Below, one piece after another: positions 19,588-58,092 of a stretch of 64,000 nucleotides of DNA. A program made the translations under genes and the position numbers. Source of the DNA: Desulfoarculaceae bacterium (GTDB lineage: Bacteria > Desulfobacterota > Desulfobulbia > Desulfobulbales > Desulfocapsaceae). Every line of letters begins with the position of its first letter. Within the stretch, counting starts at the first letter, position 1. The notes below the pieces were generated by a model, which made no database searches, was not told where the DNA came from, and saw only the letters and a list, made by a program, of their open reading frames with translations. The stretch covers positions 62,001 through 126,000 of the forward strand of contig JAHYIV010000004.1 in NCBI GenBank assembly GCA_019429465.1, in the 5' to 3' direction.

Positions 19588-22500
19588 TTACCGGTCCCCT
19601 GTGGCCCCGAAGGCCACTATCTGGGAGATAATCTGCTCATTGGTGAACCCGCCCATGGAGATGGCAAAGGTCGGACAATGGGCGGCACAGATCCCGCAGG
19701 CCTTGCATGAGGCGGCAATGGTCTCCGCCTTCCGTTTGCCATCCACTTTCTGCATGACAATGGCGCCATAGGGACAGAGGCTGACGCAGAGGCCGCAGCC
19801 GATGCACTTGTCCTGCTGCACGCTCGATACTATCGGGTCAACCGTCACATGACCCATGACCAGCGGGATCGCAGCCTTGGCCGCTGCCGCCTGGGCCTGA
19901 ACAATAGTCTCATCGACAGGCTTGGGACCGTGGGCCAGCCCGCACACATAGACGCCGGAGACTGACAGCTCCACGGGACGCAGCTTGACATGGGCCTCAA
20001 GGAAGAACTTATTGGCCGTCACCGGCAGCTTCAGCAGCTTAGAGAGGGTATCGGTATCATCCGGCACGATCCCCACGGAGAGGGCCACCAGGTCAGGCGC
20101 CATGACCACCTCTTCCTGCATGATAGAGTCGAAGAAACGGACCTGCACCTTTTCGCCCTTCTCGGTCACCTCCGGCTTACGGTCCACCTCATAGGGGATG
20201 AAGACCACGCCCATCTTGCGGGCCTCCGTATACGCGTCCTCGGCAAAGCCGTAGGTGCGCATATCCCGGTAGAGGACAATGATCTGGGATCCAGGGTTGA
20301 TCTCCTTGACCTTGAGGATATTCTTCAAGGCGTGATTACAGCAGACCTTGGAGCAGTAGTTGAGATCATCACCGCGCGAACCGGCGCACTGGATCATGAC
20401 GATGGAACCGGGTGCCCGGGTCTTGGCCTTACCCGCCAGTTGTTTCTCCAGCTCCTGCTGAGTCACCACCTTTTTGGACTTGCCCAACAGATACTTGTCA
20501 GGTCGATGCTCGTGGCCGCCGGTGGCGACAATGATCACCCCATGGTCAAAAGTCTGCTCGACCTTGGTCTTGCCCATGCCGCTGGCAATCACCGAGGCAA
20601 AGTTGCCGATAAAGCCGGCGGTCTGCACCAGCTCCGCATTGCAGATTACATCTATCTTCTTGGATCCGGTAACCCTGGTGACCAGGGTCTTTAGATGCGA
20701 CTGCACCGCATCGCCTGCCAGGGTATGGTGCAGATTCTTGAGATTACCGCCGATACTGTCCCCTTTTTCAATGAGGACCGAATCAAATCCCTGCTCGGCC
20801 AGGTTCAGGGCGGCGGTCATTCCCGCCACTCCTGCCCCGATAACCAGGGCCTTCGCTGTTACCGGCACCGACTGTTCGGGCAGCGGCTGGATAATTCTGG
20901 CCTTGGCCACGGCCATACGCACCAGATCCTTGGACTTGATGGTGGCCAGCTCCGGTTCACCGGCATGGACCCAGGAACACTGATCGCGAATATTGACCAT
21001 CTCAAAGAGGTTCCGGTTCAGACCGGCATCGCGCATGGTCTCCTGGAACAGAGGCTCGTGGGTGCGCGGCGAACAGGCGGCAATCACCACCCGGTTCAGC
21101 TTGTGTTCCTTGATCTTCTTCTTGATAACCTCCTGGGCATCCTGGGAACAGGAGTAGAGGTTTTCGGTATAATAGGTGACATTCTTCATATCGCCGGCGT
21201 AGTTGGCCACCGCGGCCACATCCACGACCGAGCTGATATTGATGCCGCAATGGCAGACAAAGACCCCGATCCTGGCCTCTTCGTCTGCAGCAAGTTGCTG
21301 CTCCTCAGGATAGATCTTGAGCTCCACCCCTTTGCCCCGTACCTGTTTCAGGGACGCGGCGGCCAGTGAGGCGGCAGCCGATGCCTGGGTAACCGATTCC
21401 GGGATATCCTTGGGGCCCTGGAAGGCACCGGCCACCATAATTCCTTCCTGACTGGTCTGCAGGGGGTTGAAGCCATCCGTGGCGCAGAAATCATACTTGT
21501 TCAGAGCAACCCCGGTAATATCGGCTATCTTCTGCGCATCCTTGGGCGACTCAAGCCCCACGGACAGCACCACCAGATCAAAGGGATCGAACCTGTGCTG
21601 GCCGTCAAGTGTGGCATAGGTCAGCTGCAACCGGTTCTCCCAGGGGGTGACATCCGCCACCTTGGCCCGGACAAACTTGATGCCGATGGCCTCGGCCCGC
21701 TCGCGGGCGGCATCGAAATCCTTGCCCTGGGTGCGGATATCCAGATAGAAGATGGTGATATCCACTTCCGGGTCATGTTCCTTGGTCACCAGCGCCTCTT
21801 TGATGGCGTACATGCAGCAGACCGAAGAACAGTAGCCGTTATTGCAGCCTATGTCACGGGAGCCGACGCACTGGATAAAGGCCATGCGCTTGGGATGCCT
21901 GCCATCGGAGAAGCATTTGACCTCACCCATGAAGGGGCCGGAGGCGGTGGTCATCCGCTCAAACTCAAAGGCGGTTACCACATCCGGGTGCTTGCCGTAA
22001 CCGAAATTGGCCAGGGTTTCGGGAGCAATCTTGCCGAAACCGGGCGAGAGGATCACCGCCCCGATCCGCAGCTTCCGCTCTTCCGGCTGCTGCTTGAAAT
22101 TAATGGCATGACTCTGACAGACCGGCACACAGATCTGACAGGTCCCATGCTGCAGAAAGAGACAGGAGCTCGGATCGATGTAATAGGTGGCAGGCACCGC
22201 CTGGGCATAATCGATATGGATGGGCCTGGTAATGGCCAGCCCCTCATTATAGGGATCCACATGATGCTTGGGGCAATACTGGGTGCATAATCCGCAGGCG
22301 GTACAGGCATCGGCATCGATATAACGCGGCCGCAGATTGATCGTAGCCGTAAAATTTCCTGGAGTTCCTTCCAATGCCAGAAGATCAGCATTGGTCAACA
22401 TTTCAATATTGGGAGACCGACCGGCCTCTACCAGCTTTGGCGCCAGGATTCAGAGTGAACAGTCATTGGTCGGAAAGGTTTTGTCCAGCTGGGCCATGAC

Positions 22501-22638
22501 CCCGCCGACGGCCGGGGATTTCTCCACCAGATAGACATAAAAACCAAGATCCGTCAGATCCAGCGCGGCCTGGATCCCGGCGATTCCCCCGCCGACGACC
22601 ATGACTGCCCCTTCCCTGTGATTCATTGCTTTACCCAT
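19588..22638 (-). CDS. hdrA: HdrA-like flavin/iron-sulfur electron-bifurcating subunit, selenoprotein
   Basis: 1016 residues read through TGA 22452-22450 as selenocysteine 63. N-terminal FAD motif [15 protein letters not shown], then TFPTNDCSL[19 protein letters not shown]; in HdrA proteins this position is Cys, or Sec in some methanogens. Ferredoxin motifs follow ([20 protein letters not shown]). A second HdrA block ([12 protein letters not shown], about 380) has its own FAD motif ([15 protein letters not shown]), making this a long double-type HdrA. It ends with two [4Fe-4S] motifs ([24 protein letters not shown]). HdrA bifurcates or confurcates electrons through FAD. AGGAG lies 7 nt before the ATG. 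No hdrB or hdrC is present. Confidence 0.93.
22421..22449 (-). promoter_or_regulatory. possible SECIS region in hdrA
   Basis: The mRNA after UGA can form CUGGC/GCCGG (offset 4-8 with 25-29) enclosing a GGU-containing loop about 18 nt from the UGA. The stem is short, so this call rests mostly on the protein evidence for Sec. Confidence 0.4.
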
Positions 22639-22680
22639 AATGTTACTCCTGAAAAATTATCGTTTGGGTCTTCTGTTATA

Positions 22681-25600
22681 TTATGCTTCGACCTTTGTGG
22701 CCTTGATCGCACAGATTTTATACTGCGGGCTGCGCGACAGCCGGTCGAGACTGTTTAAGGTCAGGTTGTTCACTGGAACTTCTGCAAAGTGATACGGAAT
22801 AGCAATGGTGCCAAGCTGCGAACGATCGGATATTTTGGCACGTAACTGCACCGTGCCGCGCCTTGAGCTGACTTCAATTGTATCCAGATCATCAATACCC
22901 AGCCGGACTGCATCCTCATGATTGATCTCGGCAAATGGTTCAGGGCACAGGGCCTCAATCTCCGGGGTCTTGCGGGTCATGGAACCAAAGTTATACTGAG
23001 GTATTTCCCTGATGGTGGTCAGCATCAGCGGATATTCAGCATCTGGCATCTCGGTGGGAGGGGTATAGTCCTCGGGGATAAACAGACCCTTACCCTGGGT
23101 GAACCTGCCGATATGGAGCACCGGTGTTCCCGGATGGTCTTGAGTCGGCACCGGCCATTGCAGCCCCACCTTTTCAATACGTTCATAGGTAATGCCGGCA
23201 TATTGGGGCATAAGCTGCGTCACCTCGTTGAAGATCTCTTCCGGATGCGTGTAGGGCATGTCATAGCCCATGCGATGGGACAGCTCACAGAAGATCTGCC
23301 AGTCGGCCTTGGCCTCACCGGGTGGTTCCACTGCCTTGCGCACGCGCTGGACGCGACGCTCGGTACAGGTGAAGGTGCCGTCTTTTTCGGCATAGCAGGC
23401 CGCCGGAAAGACGATATCAGCCATCTTGGCGGTATCGGTGAGAAAGATATCCTGAACGATGAGAAAATCGAGTTTTTCCAGGGCCGCTACGGCATGATGG
23501 GCATTGGGATCGGCCAGCACCGGATCTTCACCGAAGACATAGATCCCTTTGATATCTCCCTCCAGGATGGCATCCCAGACCTCGGTGGCCGCCTTGCCCT
23601 TGCGACGGGGCAGCTTCACCTCCCATATCTTCTCATAGCGATCAAAGACATCATCATTATTCAGACCGGCATATCCGGGCAGGGTATTAAACAAAGCCCC
23701 CATATCACAGGCCCCCTGGACGTTATTCTGCCCGCGCAGGGGATTCACCCCGCCTCCTGCCACTCCCAGTTTACCGCAGAGCATGGCCAGATTGGCAACC
23801 GACTTGACATTATCCGTGCCGGTGGCGTGATGGGCCAGGCCCATTCCATAGAAAATGGCGCATTTTTTTCCCGGTGAGGCATAAAGACGAGCGGCCGCAC
23901 GGAGCTGGGCCTCGGCAATACCGGTAATCTTTTCGACATAGTCCGGGGTGTACTTGGCAGTGACAATCTCCAGTTCCTCGAAATTCTCGGTGCGTTCCTC
24001 GACAAACGTCTTATCCCAGATCCCCTCTTCGAGGATCACATGCACCATGCCATTGAGCAGAGCGACATCACTGCCGGGATTGGGCCGCAGCCAGAGATCC
24101 GCCTCATCGGCAAAACCGGTGCGCCTCGGGTCAATCACCAGCAGCTTGCTGCCGTTCTTCTTGGCCTGATGGATCCGCAGACCGATGGTGGGATGACTGG
24201 TATCGGCATTGGAACCGATCACCATGATCACATCCGCTTCTATAATATCGGCGATGGAGTTGGTCATCGCGCCGCTACCGAATGAAAGGGCCAAACTGGC
24301 CACAGTGGGAGCGTGTCAGAGGCGGGCGCAATGATCGATATTATTGGTACCGATCGAGGTGCGCATGAACTTCTGCATGAGGAAGTTTTCCTCATTGGTG
24401 GCCCGGGCGCAGGAAAATCCGGCGATGGAATCCGGACCGTACATAGCCTTGAGGTCAAACAGCTTCTTGGCCGTGTAATCCAGGGCCTCGTCCCAACTGG
24501 TCTCAACCAGCATCCCGTTCTTGCGGATCAGCGGTTTGGTCAGCCGCTCCTTGTGCTGGATAAACTCATGGCCGAATCGACCCTTGACGCACAAGGCCCC
24601 GTAGTTTGGCGCCTGCTCCGGATCGGCAGTGACCTCAATGATGGTTTTACCCTTGACCCGGAGGATGATCTGGCATCCCGCCCCGCAATAGGGACAGGTA
24701 CTGCGCACCTCTGTCACCGGTTCGGTATGGAGAGGGATAGTCTGGGCCTTCTTGTTCAAGGCGCCGGTGGAACAGCTATCAACACACTTGCCGCAGGAGA
24801 CACACTTGTCATTAAAGCCCAGAATCAGTCCCACGGGCCGGCCCTTGTCATCAAAGGAATCGGCACCCAGTTCCAGGGCATCATACTCACAGGCCCGCTC
24901 GCAGCGCCCGCAGAAGATACATTTATTTTTATCAACGATAATGGCGGGATGGGAATAATCCCTGGCATAAACCGGCGTGGTCCCCATGCCCGTCTTGTTG
25001 ATATTGAGATTATGATTGATGGCAAGTTCCTTGAGATCGCAGCGGTCATAGGCGGTACAGCCGCAGGACAGGCATCTCTCGGCCTCATGCAGGGCCATCT
25101 TCTCGGAAAATCCCAGTTTCACCTCATCAAAGTCCTGACTGCAGATCTCGGGCGGCCGGGTGGGCATCTTTTCCCGCAGTTTGACATTGATGCCGTCAAA
25201 ATTCTTCAGATCGACATCATCAAAACCCTTGCCGCGAGTAAAATTAAAGCGACTCTCTCCCTCTTCCTTCGGCACTCCCATGACATAGGCATGGATATTA
25301 TCAGCGGCTCGGCGGGCTGAAACCACGGCCTGGATCACTGATCTGGGGCCGCTGACCGCATCACCGCCGGCAAAAACTCCGTTGATATTAATCTGGGATG
25401 AACGGACATTGGCATCGATGGTCTTATTGGGAGAGAGGGCAATAGTCTTCTCCAGCTCTCCACCACTGAATGTGTCAGAAACGGCGCGCTGTCCCAGAGA
25501 TGAGACGATGGAATCCACCTGCAGGATATTGGACGAACCGGGCATGGGCTCCGGCTGTCTGACCCCTTTGGCATCGGGCTCACCCAGCTTCATGCGGATC

Positions 25601-26805
25601 AACTCCAGCTTCAGTCTGGATCCCTGTTCAACCGAGTCAGCGATCGTAACCGGTGAAGCCATGAGCAGAAACTGTGCCCCTTCCTTGTCGGCCTCACGAA
25701 TATTGCGCTGATGGGCCGGCATCTCCACGCGGGAACGGGGATAGATGACGGTTACCTCGGCCACCCCCTGCCTGATCAGGGTACGTGCCACCTCCATGGC
25801 AATATTATTGCCGCCGATCACCGCCGCCCGCTTCCCCATATCCGGCGCTTTTCCTTCCGCCATCCGACGCAGATATTTCATCGCCGAATAGGTGTGCGGA
25901 TTGACCGCCCCCGGGATTTCCAGAGGGATATCCACTCCTGTCCCTGTGGCAATGAAGATCGCATCATAGCCCTGATCTTTCAGACTCTGCAGGGTAAAAT
26001 CCTTGCCCCATTTCTGACTGAGCTTGACCGACACGCCCAGCCGGAGAATGGTGTTAATCTCGTAGTTGAGGACATCCCGGGGGATTCGATACTCCAGAAA
26101 TCCATAGCGCAAGGCCCCGCCCAGCATGGGAGAAGACTCGAAGATGGTCACATCATGCCCCTTTCTCGTCAGAAAATGGGCGGCGGTAAGGCCGGCCGGG
26201 CCACCGCCAATCACTGCAATCCGTTTGCCGGTAGGAGCATCCTTGGGGATCTCCAGATCGATCTCATGACTCATGCACCAATCAGCGACAAAGCGCTTCA
26301 GATGGTTGATGGAGACCGGTTCGTCCACCAGGATGCGACGGCAGCGTGTTTCACAGAAACGGGGACAGACCCTCCCCACGGAAAAGGGCAGCGGGTTGCG
26401 CTCCATGACCAGGCGCAGCGCCTCTTCATACTGTCCCTTGGCCACATGGGCGATATAGCCCTGGACATTGATCTGTCCGGGACAGGTGAGATTACAGGGG
26501 GCCTTGCAGTCACCAAAATGGGTCTCAGCCAGGATGGCCAGGCGCTCCAGGCGGTGGGCAGCTATCCTGTCGGAATCCGAGGTAATAACCATCCCCTCCT
26601 GAGCCGGACTGACACAGGAAAGAATGAGATCCTCCTGCCCTTCTATCTCCACCATGCACATCTGACAGGGATTCCCAGTAGGCTTCCCCTGCACATGACA
26701 CAAGGTGGGGATAATGATATCCGATCGCCTGGCAACCTCAAGGATGGTGAGGCCAGCCTCAGCCACGATCTCGGCGCCATTTATAGTAAGTGTTACAGTG
26801 GTCAT
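22681..26805 (-). CDS. fdhA: formate dehydrogenase fused to an NAD(P)H/FAD (GltD-like) module, selenoprotein
   Basis: 1374 residues read through TGA 24318-24316 as selenocysteine 830 (NNIDHCARL-Sec-HAPTVASLA, the classic FdhF/FdhA site). Domains: N-terminal [2Fe-2S] (C36, C47, C50, C64); Fer4 plus GltD-like oxidoreductase (about 95-540) with FAD motif VIGGGPAGLTAAH and NAD(P) motif VIGGNNIAMEVA; two [4Fe-4S] ferredoxin motifs (CIFCGRCERAC, CVSCGKCVDSC); then the molybdopterin enzyme (CPYCGAGCQI onward) with its C-terminal cap. It reversibly converts CO2 and formate. The fused module should pass electrons to NAD(P) and, with HdrA-MvhD next door, to ferredoxin. hdrA starts 42 bp after its stop. 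Confidence 0.93.
24289..24301 (-). promoter_or_regulatory. SECIS-like hairpin in fdhA
   Basis: On the mRNA: GGCC, loop AGUUU, GGCC, starting 15 nt after the UGA. The stem is only 4 GC pairs, but loop size and spacing fit a bacterial SECIS. Confidence 0.6.
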
Positions 26806-50729: not shown

Positions 50730-51716
50730 ATGCTTCAGATCGCCCACCTGACTCTTGATTCCCCCTTTATTCTTGCCCCCCTGGCCGGATATACCGATCT
50801 CCCCTTTCGCCACCTCTGCCGCGAGTTCGGGGCAGCCCTTGTGGTCTCCGAGATGATCAGCTGTCACGGTCTGGTCTATAAACAGGCCCAGACAAGGGCC
50901 ATGCTGGCCTCAAACCCTGTGGAACGGCCCGTCTCCTTCCAGCTTTTTGGGGCCGATCCGGCCATAATGGGTCAGGCCGCAGCCATTCTCAGCACCTTTC
51001 AGCCCGATCTGATTGATATCAATATGGGCTGTCCCGTTAAAAAAGTGACCAAGCGGGGGGCAGGCGCCGCCCTGATGCAGAATCCACAACTGGCTGAGGC
51101 CATCCTGACCAGCGTCATCAAAAACAGCACCGTTCCCGTCACCGTCAAGACCAGGATCGGGGTGGATAATCTCCATATCTCGGCAATCTCCTTTGCCGGA
51201 ATGGTCGAAGACGCCGGGGCTGCCGCCATCACAGTTCATGGGCGCACCTGGGCCCAGGGGTTCGGTGGCAGCGCCGACTGGGATATCATCGCCCAGGTGA
51301 AAGAGGCTGTCTCCCTGCCGGTCATCGGCAATGGCGACATCCTCTCCCATGCCCAGGGGGTTGAAATGATGCGCCAGACCGGCTGCGACGGCATCATGAT
51401 CGGCCGGGCGGCACTCGGCAACCCCTGGGTCTTCTCTCCTGCCGGCAAACCCGACGACCTGTCCCAACTGCTGGATGGTGTCTTCCGCCACCTGGAGCTG
51501 ATCGAGGAATCGCTGGCGCCGGGTCACATGCCCGGCTGTATCAAGAATCATCTCGGCCGGTATTTTAAAGGGCTGCCCGAAAGCGCCAGATACCGGAAGA
51601 TGATCTATGACTGCAAAGACATGGAAGCCCTGCGGCAGGTACTGTCAGCCATCAGGCTTCAAGCCGAAACAATCAACAGGAACCGGGATGACTTCTTCAA
51701 AAAAGACCAGAGATAA
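50730..51716 (+). CDS. dusB: tRNA-dihydrouridine synthase
   Basis: 328 residues. FMN TIM-barrel with APLAGYTDLPFR, MGCPVKKVTKRGAGAAL (active-site Cys in MGCP), HGRTWAQGF and GNGDI, GRAALGNPW. It reduces uridine in tRNA D-loops. The closest family is DusB, though DusA/C cannot be wholly excluded. rarA starts inside its 3' end. Confidence 0.92.
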   Translation: MLQIAHLTLDSPFILAPLAGYTDLPFRHLCREFGAALVVSEMISCHGLVYKQAQTRAMLASNPVERPVSFQLFGADPAIMGQAAAILSTFQPDLIDINMGCPVKKVTKRGAGAALMQNPQLAEAILTSVIKNSTVPVTVKTRIGVDNLHISAISFAGMVEDAGAAAITVHGRTWAQGFGGSADWDIIAQVKEAVSLPVIGNGDILSHAQGVEMMRQTGCDGIMIGRAALGNPWVFSPAGKPDDLSQLLDGVFRHLELIEESLAPGHMPGCIKNHLGRYFKGLPESARYRKMIYDCKDMEALRQVLSAIRLQAETINRNRDDFFKKDQR

Positions 51717-53064
51717 ATCGCCACTCCACAGTTCATCTCCCCTGGCTGAACGTATGCGCCCCCGCACCCTTGACGGCTTCGCCGGCCAGGAGACCCTGCT
51801 GGGGCCGGGCAAGATGCTGAGTACCGTGATTGGCGCCGGCGCCCTGCCCTCGCTGATTCTCTGGGGGCCGCCGGGCACCGGCAAGACAACACTGGCCAGG
51901 ATCCTGGCGGATTCCACCTCCGCCTCTTTTGTTTATTTCTCGGCCGTCCTCTCCGGGGTGAAAGAGGTTCGGCAAATTGTCGATAAGGCCGAGGAGCTGC
52001 TCAAGACAGAACAGAGGGCCACTGTTTTTTTCATCGACGAGATCCACCGCTTCAACAAAAGTCAGCAGGATGCCTTTCTCCCCCATGTCGAGTCCGGCCT
52101 CTTTACCCTCATCGGCGCCACTACCGAGAATCCCTCTTTTCACGTTACCGCCCCCCTGCTTTCCCGCTGCCGGGTCCTGGTTCTCCACGCACTCGAACGT
52201 GAACACCTGCAGACCATCTTCCTCCGCGCCCTGACTGACCCTGAACATGGCCTGGGACAGTATCATCTCCAGTGCACCGATGACGCCCTGGCCCAGCTGA
52301 TTAGTCTGGCCGATGGTGACGCCAGGACGGGTCTCAATATCCTGGAGATCGCGGCAACCCTGGCCCTGCACCGTTTTCAACTGCAGCCGGACACAGAGGC
52401 CCCGACCATCAACACCGACGACATCGCCGAAGCGGGACAGCACAAGTCCCTGCGCTACGACAAGGATGGCGAGGAACACTACAACCTGATCTCGGCCCTG
52501 CACAAGTCCCTGCGGGATTCAGATCCGGACGGTGCCCTCTACTGGCTCTACCGGATGCTTGAAGCCGGTGAGGAACCGCTCTATATCAGCCGCCGCCTGA
52601 TCCGCTTTGCCTCGGAGGACATTGGTGTTGCCGACCCGCAGGCCCTCAGCCACACCATCAGCTGTCAACAGGCCTTCCAGACCCTTGGCAGCCCCGAAGG
52701 GACACTGGCCCTGGCCCAGGCCGTAGTCTATCTCGCCACTGCCCCCAAAAGCAACGCCCTGTACACGGCGGAATCTGACCTGCATCGTCATATCAGCCGC
52801 ACCGGTTCCCTGCCGGTGCCCATGCACCTGCGCAATGCCGCCACCAGCCTCATGAAAAAACTGGGCTACGGCAAGGGCTATCAGTACGCCCACAACCAGG
52901 ACCAGGGTTTGGTGGAACAGAATCATCTGCCACCGGAACTGGCCGGCACTTATTTTTACTCTCCCACCACCAGGGGCTATGAAGCGGTAATCAAAGACCG
53001 GCTCAGCAAATGGCGCCAGATTCTTCAACAGCGGAAACAGGAACACTATGCCTCTAAAAAATAA
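51688..53064 (+). CDS. rarA: replication-associated recombination protein A (AAA ATPase)
   Basis: 458 residues from ATG 51688, overlapping dus by 29 bp; an earlier in-frame Met at 51607 lies inside dus and lacks likeness. Walker A GPPGTGKTT, Walker B FIDEIHRFN, sensor FTLIGATTENPSF, and a C-terminal DUF4-like MgsA domain (GYGKGYQYAHNQDQ). Acts at stalled forks. Confidence 0.95.
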   Translation: MTSSKKTRDKSPLHSSSPLAERMRPRTLDGFAGQETLLGPGKMLSTVIGAGALPSLILWGPPGTGKTTLARILADSTSASFVYFSAVLSGVKEVRQIVDKAEELLKTEQRATVFFIDEIHRFNKSQQDAFLPHVESGLFTLIGATTENPSFHVTAPLLSRCRVLVLHALEREHLQTIFLRALTDPEHGLGQYHLQCTDDALAQLISLADGDARTGLNILEIAATLALHRFQLQPDTEAPTINTDDIAEAGQHKSLRYDKDGEEHYNLISALHKSLRDSDPDGALYWLYRMLEAGEEPLYISRRLIRFASEDIGVADPQALSHTISCQQAFQTLGSPEGTLALAQAVVYLATAPKSNALYTAESDLHRHISRTGSLPVPMHLRNAATSLMKKLGYGKGYQYAHNQDQGLVEQNHLPPELAGTYFYSPTTRGYEAVIKDRLSKWRQILQQRKQEHYASKK

Positions 53065-54661
53065 ATACCGTTCACCTGCCAACAGACTCGTCGGCAATGG
53101 CCTCTTTATTGTTATGCTCCTCGTAAACTTGCTGGCAGCGCCCACAGGAATCCACGCCGCTCCCCTGGAGTCCTTTCTCCTCTTTTACTCAAACAATATC
53201 CAGGGAGAGACCGAGCCCTGCGGCTGAAGCTCCAGTCAACTGGGCGGGCTGCCCAGAAAAGCATTCCAGATCAGGAATATCCCCACCAAACAACAGAAGC
53301 CCTATCTCTTTGTTGACTCCGGCAATCTGCTCTTCAAGCAGGCGCGGATAGCAGACGGGCCATCTCAGGAGCTCCTGACGGCAGAAGGAATCATCAGGAT
53401 TTACAGCACCATGAAGGTGGACGCTGTCGCGGTTGGTCCACTCGATCTGGCCTCTGGCCTGGCGTTGCTGACCAGCAGTCAGCAACAAGGATTCCCCTGG
53501 CTGTCCGCCAATCTCCTTGACCAGCAGGGCCTGCCACTGTTTCAGCCGCTGTACATCAAAAAAATCGGCAAGATAAAAGCCGGGATTATTGGCCTGACCG
53601 GTGCTGTTTCCCCCCTGCCGCCAGGCGTCACCCTGGCAGACTGGAGGGTGGTGTTTCCTGCCCTGATTGAAAAAATCAGACCCCAATGTGATATCCTGAT
53701 CCTGCTCTCCAGCCTCTCTCCTGCCGAAAATCAGGAAATAGCCCGGCAATTCCCCTCTCTCCACCTCATCCTTGCAGCTGGCAGGCAAAGCGGCAACATG
53801 ATCCCGCAGCAAGTCAACAATACCCTGATTACCCAGACAGCAGCCCAGGGAAAGTATCAGGGCATTCTCAGTATTGACTGGCATAAAAGCGGCAGATGGG
53901 AACAGGTAAAAGGAGAAGAACTGACCGAGCTGCGCAACAGGCTTGGCGCCCTCGACTGGCAACTCCTGCGGATGCGGAAAAGAGAAGATCTTCAGCAGCC
54001 GGAGTACCTTGACAAGATCAAGCTGGTTGAGAAGGATCGGGAAACGGTGACCCGACAAATTGAGACCATTGAAAAGGGTCTGACCACCGGCCTTTCCGGC
54101 GAGCAGGAAACTGCCTGCAGCCTCAACCATAACTTTCTGGCCCTGCAGCGATCCCTGCCCGAGGCACCCGAAATCACGGCCATCGTCACCGGGATCAAAC
54201 AGCAGATTCACGACCTGCACGCCAACAGGATCGGCAAAAAGGTGCAATTTCCCCTGGTTGGTCATGAGGGCTGCAAGAGTTGTCATCCGGCTCAAGGCAG
54301 CTTCTGGCAGGAAACGCGTCACGCCCGGGCCTATCAGACCCTGGTGGACCAAAAACAGGCGTTCAATCTGACATGCCTGCCCTGCCATGTTACCTCCAGC
54401 CCTGTCCTTGCCTTGAGCACGGATCAGCTCCTCTCCCTGCCTCCAACTCTTCAGGCAGTGGGCTGTGAAAACTGTCACACCGGCCCCGGCGGCTCCCACG
54501 CCGGTCAACCCGAACAGTTTCAGATGACAAAGCAGGTGGCGGAAAAGGTGTGCCTCTCCTGCCACACCCAAGAGAGGGACCACACTTTTGACTATCAGAA
54601 AAAATTAGCATTGATTGCCTGCCCGACAGGTCAGGCAGCGACCAAGGGTCGGAGACCGTAG
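53048..54661 (+). CDS. tetraheme c-type cytochrome with N-terminal UshA-like domain, candidate selenoprotein
   Basis: 537 residues read through TGA 53225-53227 as selenocysteine 60. ATG 53048 has AGGA 6 bp before and overlaps rarA by 17 bp. Signal peptide (1-37, ends GIHA), then FLLFYSNNIQGETEPCG-Sec-SSSQLGGLPRKA. In homologues of this type a Cys usually follows CG (CGC motif). The middle resembles a 5'-nucleotidase/metallophosphatase-like domain (DAVAVGPLDL, WLSANLLDQQG). Four CXXCH motifs follow at Cys409, 443, 473 and 502, then the FDYQKKLALIACP tail. A SECIS-like hairpin follows the TGA. Periplasmic electron carrier with unknown partner. Confidence 0.82.
53240..53256 (+). promoter_or_regulatory. 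SECIS-like hairpin in the cytochrome gene
   Basis: CUGGGC, loop GGGCU, GCCCAG: a perfect 6-bp stem starting 13 nt after the UGA with a GG in the apical loop. This is the best-formed SECIS-like hairpin in the window. Confidence 0.8.
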
Positions 54662-54996
54662 TCTGCCCGCAGTTACTCCAGGATCATGCCAATTGAAAAT
54701 CCGGAATTTGAGGCTTTATGAAATCGTTACAGGTTATGGCTGACTGGAGATGACTCAGTCATCAATATTCCGATATTTCTGCATTTTCTGACAACAGGAC
54801 AAGAAAAAAATTGAAGATTGTTACCACTATGTGATACAAAAATATTGATTTGAATAATTTAATAATGCAGCCATAAAAACCCTTGACTCTTCTGCAGGAA
54901 GCTCCTCATACAGTGTTTCACCATTTATTCTGCTGGCTTATGCTAATACCGTCTTGACCGGAGTTTGTTCCGCCTTAACCACTTGGAGTGATAACT
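54662..54996 (+). promoter_or_regulatory. AT-rich gap with a sigma-70-like promoter
   Basis: No gene seen in this 335-bp stretch. TTGACT at 54883-54888, 17-bp spacer, TCATAC at 54906-54911 is a reasonable -35/-10 pair about 85 bp before the membrane protein start. The upstream half is AT-rich. Confidence 0.5.
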
Positions 54997-56826
54997 ATGA
55001 CCGACAACGCAATTGAAGCAAAAGTTGATCAACTTGCTGCTCAAATCAAGACCCTGACCAACCAGCTTAACAAGCAGCATGAACGACTGACATCCCTTGA
55101 AAAGGCATGGCCCAACGGAACCGTGAAAAGTATTGCTGCCGTTCCTCCTGCTGTGGATAGCCGTCAGACGGTTGTTCAGGTTACCAGGACACAGGCAAAA
55201 CCCACAAGTTCGACCGCAACCACATCGTCATGGGCGGGTCGTGGATCTTTCCTGGCAAAGCTGTCAACAATCTGTTTTATTCTGGTTGTCGCCCTGATTT
55301 TGCGGACCCTGACAGATAACGGCTTGCTTGCTGCCAAGACAGGTTCAATTATCGGAGCAGCCTATGCTGCTTTTCTCATCGCCGCCGGCTGGAAGTTGGT
55401 CAACCAGAAACAGACGCTCGGACCGCTCTTTCCTATCTGCGGGGCCCTCTTGATGTACACCCTGGTTCTTGAAACCCATGCCCGTTTCGCAGCGTATACC
55501 TCAGTTACAGCCTACAGCATCCTTCTGCTGACCATGCTGTCGCTGGCGATAATGGGGAAGCGCTACCAACGGGTGCTGTTTTACGGTGTTGGGCTCCTGG
55601 GTGCAAGCTGTACCGCCTTAGCTATTGATTTCCCGACACCTTTCTTCCCGTACATTGCTTTATTTCTGTTTGCCGCCAATGTGATAGCATTTTCTTACGA
55701 GTACCAGAAGACCAGGAGGGTGCAGATTCTTCTCTATACAATGACTGTGCTGTTTTGGTTCTTCTGGGCCGTCAGATTGCATGCTCAGCTAGGCGCGGGA
55801 GGTGAGATCCTGCCAAGTCTCGCCCTGTCCTGGTTCTTGCCGGTGACCCTGCTGACTATCCTTACCCTCATGGGGTTTTCTATATATACCTCTTTTCGCA
55901 ATGGCGACTCATTGATAGCGTTTGATATCACCCTGCCTACGGTAAATGTCCTTTGGCTCTATCCTGTATGCAACCTGGTTGTGACTCCCTGGCTGGGGAA
56001 TGGTCACTTACTCGGTTATGCCGGCCTTGCTCTCTCATTGTTTCATTTTGTTGTTGCCTGGTCAATCTTCAAGTTCAGCCGACAGGGCGGAGCTGGTATC
56101 TGTGCCTACGTCGTTGCCGGTGCCGTTCTCATGGTAATGAGCACCCTTTCTGCAACGGACAATATTCTGCTGGTGTTGCCTTTCTGGAGTTTGGTGGCAG
56201 TGATGTTGACCCTGGCCTCACAGACCTGTGAGATAGGCGGTATTCGTCTCACTTCTTATTTATTGCAAGGTGTTGCCACTTTCCTCGGAATCACCTATGG
56301 CGTTTTTTTGCCAGGAACATCTACCCCTGTACTCTCTCTCCTGGTAGTCGGTTTCCTGGCCGTGATGAGCGCATTCCAGTACTACTGGAGCCGCAAACAT
56401 CGCGTTAACTGCAGCAAAGGTTTTTTCGCCCTGATGGATCCACGGGATATCTCTGCCGCCATCCTGTTGTTCGCGGCCCTGATTGATGGATTCTTCATGG
56501 TCCAGCTTGTTACCTACAAATTGCTTGCTGCCTTTATCGCCGATCCCGGTAATGCCCTGGTGGGAGCCCAGTCGATAGTTATTAATGTTGGGGCCATGGG
56601 CCTGATGATCTTCGGTCTGCTGAAAAAAAATCGGGAGATTCTCTACACGGCCATTGGTGTTGTCGTTATCGGGGGAGTTAAGACGATCGGGTATGACCTC
56701 TTTAAGGTACACAACATCCCCCTGGTCTTGAGTGTTTTCTCGTTTGCGGCTGCCGCTGCAGTAGGATCGGTGGTTTTCAGCCGCTGGTCACAAACAGGCC
56801 ATGTTGAGGAGATTTCCCGCGGGTAA
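54997..56826 (+). CDS. large polytopic membrane protein (DUF2339-like)
   Basis: 609 residues from ATG 54997, with GGAG 8 bp before (a GTG at 54988 overlaps the site). A short coiled-coil head (about 1-45, heptads of Leu/Ile), a Ser/Thr/Pro linker, then about 14 or more hydrophobic helices. Layout (coiled coil, linker, many helices) resembles DUF2339 proteins. Function unknown. It stands alone between a promoter and dsbB. Confidence 0.6.
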   Translation: MTDNAIEAKVDQLAAQIKTLTNQLNKQHERLTSLEKAWPNGTVKSIAAVPPAVDSRQTVVQVTRTQAKPTSSTATTSSWAGRGSFLAKLSTICFILVVALILRTLTDNGLLAAKTGSIIGAAYAAFLIAAGWKLVNQKQTLGPLFPICGALLMYTLVLETHARFAAYTSVTAYSILLLTMLSLAIMGKRYQRVLFYGVGLLGASCTALAIDFPTPFFPYIALFLFAANVIAFSYEYQKTRRVQILLYTMTVLFWFFWAVRLHAQLGAGGEILPSLALSWFLPVTLLTILTLMGFSIYTSFRNGDSLIAFDITLPTVNVLWLYPVCNLVVTPWLGNGHLLGYAGLALSLFHFVVAWSIFKFSRQGGAGICAYVVAGAVLMVMSTLSATDNILLVLPFWSLVAVMLTLASQTCEIGGIRLTSYLLQGVATFLGITYGVFLPGTSTPVLSLLVVGFLAVMSAFQYYWSRKHRVNCSKGFFALMDPRDISAAILLFAALIDGFFMVQLVTYKLLAAFIADPGNALVGAQSIVINVGAMGLMIFGLLKKNREILYTAIGVVVIGGVKTIGYDLFKVHNIPLVLSVFSFAAAAAVGSVVFSRWSQTGHVEEISRG

Positions 56827-57004: not shown

Positions 57005-57442
57005 ATGCCAAGACCTGACCAAACGTCCAATGCCAATTGGAATATTCTTTTTGTCTGCTGGCTCATCGCCGCCACCTCAACCATGGGGAGTGTGTTTTTC
57101 AGTTATGTGATGGATTTTGCGCCCTGTGTCTTGTGCTGGTACCAGAGAATCTGCCTGTTTCCTTTAGTTATTTTGCTGGCCGTCGGACTTTTTTCTTTTG
57201 ATAAAAGCGTGGTCAAATATACCCTCCCCTTGGCCATAGCAGGCTGGTTGACAGCATTCTATCACACGCTGCTCTATGCCGGTATCATCCCGGAGAGCAT
57301 ACAGCCCTGCACCCAGGGCATTTCATGTACGGAAGAGTATATAAATCTGTTTGGTTTTATAACAATACCAATGCTTTCCCTACTGTCATTTTCAATGATC
57401 ATAGCCCTGTTAATTATCTTAAAGAGGAGAATGTCTCGATGA
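57005..57442 (+). CDS. DsbB-family disulfide bond formation membrane protein
   Basis: 145 residues, four hydrophobic helices. Redox pairs: Cys41-Cys44 (APCVLCWYQRI, the DsbB quinone-side motif) and Cys102/Cys108 (QPCTQGISC). It would reoxidise a DsbA-like partner and pass electrons to quinone. GGGGAG ribosome site. Overlaps the next gene by ATGA. Confidence 0.92.
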   Translation: MPRPDQTSNANWNILFVCWLIAATSTMGSVFFSYVMDFAPCVLCWYQRICLFPLVILLAVGLFSFDKSVVKYTLPLAIAGWLTAFYHTLLYAGIIPESIQPCTQGISCTEEYINLFGFITIPMLSLLSFSMIIALLIILKRRMSR

Positions 57443-58092
57443 AATATGTAATAATTGGGGTTTCATGTCTGGTGCTGATCCTGTTGTTTGTCTTCGGCAG
57501 CTCCTACTACCGAGGGCAACAGGCTGAAAAATTTGGTTTTATGGCCCAGGAGAATGCTTCAACATTTGTCCGTGAACATTCTCAGACCCTTGGCAGTGAT
57601 GAGGCGAAAGTCTACATTGTCGAGTTTATGGACCCTGCCTGTGAAACCTGTGCTGCCTTTTCTCCCTTTGTGAAGCAGATTATGGACGCCAATCCCGGCA
57701 AAATCAAACTTGTCCTTCGTTATGCGCCTTTTCATGATGGTGCTGATTATTTTGTAAAAATTCTGGAAGCAGCCAAATTACAGGGAAAATATTGGGAGAC
57801 TCTGGACATCATGTTTAAGTCTCAGCCCTATTGGGCCAGCCACCATAGCCCGAAACCGCAACTGATCTGGCAATTTCTTCTTAACACAGATCTCGATGTG
57901 GAAAAAATCAGAAAAGATATGACTGACCCGGCCATTGTAAAAATCATCGAGCAGGATCTTGCCGATGCAAAGACGCTGGATGTTCGCAAAACACCAGGTT
58001 TTTTTGTCAACGGTAAGCCTCTGCAAATCTTTGGCTACCAGCAATTACAAGAGTTGATTGAGTCTGAAATCAAGGCAAATTATCCGAATTGA
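57439..58092 (+). CDS. DsbA-like thioredoxin-fold oxidoreductase
   Basis: 217 residues from ATG 57439, overlapping dsbB's stop by 4 bp; AAGAGGAG lies upstream. Membrane-anchored N-terminus (about 1-25). Active site DPACETC (Cys68, Cys71) and cis-Pro loop KTPGFFVNG. Similar to the BdbD/DsbA partners of short DsbB proteins. Translational overlap supports a redox pair in the periplasm. Confidence 0.9.
   Translation: MKYVIIGVSCLVLILLFVFGSSYYRGQQAEKFGFMAQENASTFVREHSQTLGSDEAKVYIVEFMDPACETCAAFSPFVKQIMDANPGKIKLVLRYAPFHDGADYFVKILEAAKLQGKYWETLDIMFKSQPYWASHHSPKPQLIWQFLLNTDLDVEKIRKDMTDPAIVKIIEQDLADAKTLDVRKTPGFFVNGKPLQIFGYQQLQELIESEIKANYPN

Follow-up and report, generated by a model that had tools for sequence, protein, structure and literature searches.

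A gene in the window (the whole 64,000-nucleotide stretch of DNA analysed here) encodes, with a probability of about 0.85, an exported UshA-like (PCGU) selenoprotein, in which a ligand-depleted fold carries a Cys-Gly-Sec redox site coupled to a tetraheme cytochrome module. The likeliest reading of its sequence and structural model is that a former phosphatase fold has turned into a redox domain and is joined to a tetraheme relay. The signal peptide would take the protein to the periplasm, the 5'-nucleotidase fold appears to be retained with most of its metal ligands lost, and the Cys-Gly-Sec motif would act as a selenenylsulfide/dithiol redox site. Full-length members would use their C-terminal tetraheme to relay electrons to or from this site; in heme-less relatives, electrons would pass via another cytochrome or donor. 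Judged by its sequence, the gene is a member of an already named selenoprotein family and not of a new one, and it is ordinary within that family except for its relatives without the heme-binding half.

The gene and its family

A single frame of 537 residues is obtained once the TGA at codon 60 is read as a residue (Table 1). This is the only in-frame TGA, and the terminal stop lies at 54659–54661. Translation thus confirms the first-pass annotation, which had described an uninterrupted frame of 537 codons with one TGA and four CXXCH motifs. The sequence around the TGA is GETEPCGU SSSQLGGL, giving the motif Cys58-Gly-Sec60. A gene caller unaware of Sec would end or split the gene at the TGA; the Sec reading is well supported here. 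The earlier description of a multiheme protein with a signal peptide is also supported, the signal peptide being probable from the sequence and from a helix at residues 10–29 of an AlphaFold model (in which confidence is low at residues 1–14 and 30–37). The Pfam Cytochrome_C554 match covers residues 409–478.

Table 1. Features of the UshA-like selenoprotein gene and of the gene just upstream (positions in the window)
Feature	Position	Strand	Basis or remark
UshA-like multiheme selenoprotein gene, 537 residues	53048..54661	+	Translation with TGA as Sec; family profile match
Hydrophobic N-terminal helix, probable signal peptide, ~residues 1–38	53048..53161	+	Sequence; model helix 10–29
Sec codon TGA, codon 60 of Cys-Gly-Sec	53225..53227	+	Translation; homologue alignments
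SECIS hairpin CTGGGC-GGGCT-GCCCAG	53240..53256	+	Folding; pairing in homologues; bSECIS constraints
UshA/5'-nucleotidase-like domain and helical linker, degenerate metal ligands, ~residues 39–395	53162..54232	+	Profile, model, structure matches, ligand columns
Tetraheme cytochrome c554-like module, residues 401 to ~531	54248..54640	+	Pfam PF13435; profile comparison
Heme motif 1 CKSCH, residues 409–413	54272..54286	+	Sequence
Heme motif 2 CLPCH, residues 443–447	54374..54388	+	Sequence
Heme motif 3 CENCH, residues 473–477	54464..54478	+	Sequence
Heme motif 4 CLSCH, residues 502–506	54551..54565	+	Sequence
rarA/mgsA-like AAA ATPase gene, just upstream	51607..53064	+	Overlaps selenoprotein start by 17 nt

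The protein matches the NCBIfam model NF041198 (UshA_like_PCGU, 'UshA-like (seleno)protein') with 589.3 bits against a cutoff of 275, and its residues 21–517 align with profile positions 2–519 of 519. This near full-profile alignment implies that the model covers the heme region. A new selenoprotein family was rejected on the strength of this match, and the earlier view that the gene belonged to no described selenoprotein family was wrong, given the full-length match and the presence in print of both this family and the Sec cytochrome ExtKL.

Probable selenocysteine at the in-frame TGA

The in-frame TGA very probably encodes selenocysteine, as judged from homologues and from the genes of the host. 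Across the phylum, 395 genomes were sampled, and 69 of them have a match above the family cutoff. Of 41 loci examined (L001, L010–L019 and L023–L052), 40 carry the motif, in each case with TGA, and 37 of these are distinct; the exception is L040, in which Ser-Gly-Arg replaces Cys-Gly-Sec. Among the 30 loci listed, the match contained one TGA in 28, two in one (L050) and none in one (L040). The matches listed include 18 TGA-free stretches that reach the Sec column, the last of which (L070) is the same gene as L040: seven have CGC aligned with CGU, four a GCGC motif, six another Cys-rich motif and one Ser-Gly-Arg. Cysteine is, therefore, usual where TGA is absent, and the earlier expectation of a cysteine at this column was borne out by the alignments. 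UshA-like relatives with no TGA in the match and an alternative Cys-rich loop (e.g. C-x-TCPEG) are found at L059, L060, L062, L063, L065 and L066. The L040 gene (61–140) is a full-length tetraheme homologue in which, with Ser-Gly-Arg, both redox residues are gone.

The machinery for Sec insertion, which the first-pass annotation had supposed to be present in the host, was found in full in the genome: tRNA-Sec (69.1 bits, gathering score 47), SelB (387.7, cutoff 242.25), SelA (623.7, cutoff 267.9) and SelD (373.9, cutoff 125), each the sole match over its cutoff, with SelD carrying a TGA of its own. The suggestion that the window holds further Sec genes also looks right, as two other frames each contain an in-frame TGA. 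An HdrA2-like frame (19588–22653, minus strand; NF040770, 962.5 bits, under the cutoff of 1100) continues through a TGA at 22450–22452 (minus strand), after Cys-Ser-Leu, and is probably a Sec-containing HdrA on the basis of its sequence. A formate dehydrogenase alpha frame (22681–26805, minus strand), with a part resembling the glutamate synthase small subunit in front, is split by a TGA at 24316–24318 (ARLUHAP).

The SECIS hairpin

The hairpin has arms CTGGGC (53240–53245) and GCCCAG (53251–53256), which form a perfect 6-bp stem around the loop GGGCT, and begins at the 13th nucleotide after the TGA, as had been noted at first pass. The bSECIS constraints given in a 2026 review are a loop of 3–9 nt, an upper stem of 4–16 bp, a G within the loop's first two positions, a spacing of 16–37 nt and a minimum free energy of −7.5 kcal/mol or below. 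The window hairpin lies within these limits, with a loop of 5 nt, a stem of 6 bp, GG and a TGA-to-loop distance of 18 nt, and has an energy of −11.1 kcal/mol when a 28-nt stretch is folded. Taken alone, it says little: a fold as good or better is reached by 6.4% of synonymous recodings (p 0.064), and against dinucleotide shuffles of 48 nt, a test in which many relatives are weak too, it has a z of −0.5, neither value being significant.

The comparison of homologues is stronger evidence. It was based on 37 distinct Sec genes, obtained from the 40 loci by dropping L025, L042 and L045 (copies of L001, L018 and L015); these genes are related and include near-duplicates. All six pairs are kept in 27 of them and five of six in the other 10, with compensatory changes: the outer pair alternates between C-G and T-A in close relatives, and in distant relatives the third pair changes from G-C to T-A and the 3' arm has slid by one base. 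Part of this conservation is due to that of the protein sequence (LGGL), for which the recoding test allows. In this test, the mean z was −1.46 in the 37 Sec genes versus −0.18 in 11 Cys genes, with a p of 0.0003 that overstates the significance because the rows are related. The energy of the same 28-nt stretch was weaker than −7.5 kcal/mol in 13 of the 37 Sec homologues. The SECIS-like hairpin proposed earlier thus has the expected geometry and a pairing that is kept in homologues, although it is not significant in the window alone.

It might be argued that the TGA arose by an error in sequencing or assembly or by a nonsense mutation, and that the gene encodes a cysteine protein or is a pseudogene. 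Any of these could leave a lone TGA of this kind in a single draft contig, and the unexceptional hairpin of the window would fit. However, TGA recurs at the same column across independent genomes, and dN/dS is 0.12–0.27 in ten pairs of close relatives; this explanation was rejected on these grounds, and its probability is close to negligible.

The UshA-like domain

A profile of 32 family members has both 5'-nucleotidases (3ivd, E 4e-29) and cytochrome c554 among its matches. The AlphaFold model has a mean pLDDT of 79.9 and a pTM of 0.77, with low confidence at residues 61–63, and its best PDB matches are CD73 and E. coli UshA (E about 1e-17), with a query TM of 0.39–0.47 for the whole two-part model. 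The dinuclear metal site of UshA is formed by the motifs DxH, GD, NHE, H and GHxH. In the columns aligned with these ligands, the Asn and His of NHE are each found in 0 of 32 members. Single ligands are kept in some: the Asp of DxH in 17 of 32, its His in two (L024 and L026, which have both D and H), the Asp of GD in four, and the later His residues in four, five and two. The window protein has N50, Q52, N93, P131, L132, S222, G245 and Q247 at the ligand columns, and the UshA site is not found in it. By contrast, C58, residue 60 and D133 are present in 32 of 32. From the sequence and the model, the Cys-Gly-Sec motif seems to sit in the loop past the first strand (41–48), in the place of DxH. 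An active nucleotidase of the UshA pattern was rejected, given the missing NHE residues and the degeneracy of the ligands.

Because the metallophosphatase ligands are degenerate, we read the domain as a redox domain and not as a nucleotidase. The protein could instead still be a metal-dependent phosphatase or nucleotidase, in which Sec is a metal ligand or a regulator. The 5'-nucleotidase fold, the Asp of DxH in about half of the members, the complete DxH pair in two and the invariant D133 are consistent with this, and the sequences of some members suggest that there may be a residual metal site in places. Nevertheless, both NHE residues are missing throughout, the other His residues are mostly missing, and the fused tetraheme and the Cys-Gly-Sec motif suggest redox chemistry, making a phosphatase improbable. 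Some points also count against the main reading: among the 18 TGA-free relatives in the matches listed, the six with another Cys-rich loop and the one with neither Cys nor Sec.

Within the redox reading, the protein may more narrowly be a reductase of selenium or sulfur oxyanions (e.g. selenite, sulfite or thiosulfate), with Sec binding the substrate and the hemes supplying electrons. The hemes are c554-like, there is a weak similarity to SoxB (27.5 bits versus a cutoff of 550), and for ExtKL, a predicted five-heme Sec cytochrome of Geobacter, the authors suspect an involvement in selenite reduction (PMC5877670, in the part of the paper available). However, the likeness to SoxB is a general property of the fold, and forms without hemes would depend on a donor from outside; the reading seems unlikely, if less so than a retained phosphatase activity.

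Presence and probable loss of the heme module

Four CXXCH motifs were found in 30 of the 40 loci, which were chosen as the best or closest matches and are therefore biased towards long forms. In the genus to which the window belongs, 16 of 17 genomes have a family match: seven of these matches run through the tetraheme (including that of the genome studied here), eight end at residues 400–437, and one (G474) was assigned to neither class. L013–L019 and L077 are relatives without the tetraheme half in which Cys-Gly-Sec is kept. Remnants of the heme region follow the stop codon in L013 (66% over 47 residues) and L014 (38% over 78), none were found at E 0.01 in L015–L019, and G471 has heme-region fragments about 2.4 kb downstream.

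The Sec-domain tree was built from 27 rows, after omission of L085, L093 and L097, which did not fit the motif pattern, and removal of 10 identical rows from the 40. The minimum number of changes of heme state on this tree is three, a count that gives in itself no direction (loss versus gain). A single heme-less clade was rejected (AU p 0.0007, an optimistic value, as the group was named after viewing the tree). Loss is favoured over gain by the remnants and by the presence of hemes in the 12 outer rows. TGA is kept in 15 of 15 genus rows of the tree, and dN/dS is 0.12–0.23 in five heme-less pairs, implying purifying selection on the shortened gene. From these sequences, at least three losses of the tetraheme half seem to have occurred within the genus, with Cys-Gly-Sec kept, so that the core of the protein would seem to be the Sec domain. 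A broader and more tentative proposal, to which we give slightly less than even odds, is that PCGU is a dead metallophosphatase that is now a seleno-redox enzyme with or without a tetraheme of its own, the hemes having been lost at least three times in one genus, with remnants left in some cases, and the Sec site being under purifying selection. The occurrence of heme-bearing and heme-less versions in one genus provides a lead on the role of the Sec site and on the source of its electrons.

Gene neighbourhood

Immediately before the selenoprotein gene lies rarA, in the window as in 10 of 10 close loci (with L019 at a contig edge), and also in six of 20 further loci (L100–L104 and L109), where a manganese pyrophosphatase is also nearby. 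Loci without rarA have aldehyde ferredoxin oxidoreductase (AOR), cytochrome, TPR or UvrD proteins as neighbours. In five distant relatives (L107, L108 and L110–L112), the gene adjoins one for a shared protein of 654–663 residues, of which the copy scanned (L111) has cytochrome c3 and b561 domains, and L105, L106 and L113 have AOR as a common neighbour (L106 copy scanned). No conserved operon partner pointing to a substrate was found in the close and 20 further loci, the neighbours varying between lineages, and a promoter and terminator scan gave nothing beyond its shuffles. Downstream in the window are a 612-residue ORF (54988–56826, plus strand), for which neither Pfam nor NCBIfam gave a match at the thresholds applied, and a Thioredoxin_4/DsbA-like gene (57325–58092, plus strand), which has a sub-cutoff match (30.2 bits versus 190) to NF041057, a thioredoxin-like (seleno)lipoprotein.

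Comparison with known systems

The gene resembles NF041198 members in its full-length match, heme region included, and in Cys-Gly-Sec with an in-frame TGA, and no substantive difference was found. In the parts of these sources available, the family is tabled in the 2008 Global Ocean Sampling selenoproteome as 'COG0737, UshA-like' with the motif CxU (PMC2398784), and UshA-like is included in reviews of 2022 and 2026, the latter giving the accession NF041198 and CxU; no functional test was found in the portions of the literature on the family at hand. The CxU motif in an UshA-like protein is shared with the 2008 entry. However, the available text of that paper has no mention of 'cytochrome', and its discussion excepts UshA-like, SelD and FdhA from the families having conserved Cys-based redox motifs; because of this separation, despite the tabled CxU, confidence in the main reading was reduced from 0.90 to 0.85.

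NF049981 (UshA-like (seleno)protein family 2) is similar in an N-terminal stretch (residues 45–133, 43.9 bits), but this match is below its own cutoff of 140 bits and its motif is CxxU, according to the accessible part of the 2026 review. The same part of that review also has ExtKL, as a multiheme cytochrome, and a family of octaheme cytochromes of the tetrathionate reductase type. ExtKL (NF040886) is, like the protein studied here, a multiheme c-type cytochrome with a predicted Sec, but it has five hemes and belongs to another gene cluster (PMC5877670, in the part available); NF040886 was absent from the 14 NCBIfam families matching the window protein at E up to 1. The fold of the N-terminal domain is that of the 5'-nucleotidases E. 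coli UshA and human CD73, with a profile alignment that spans only about residues 38–298, whereas the metal ligands are degenerate here and Sec and hemes have been added.
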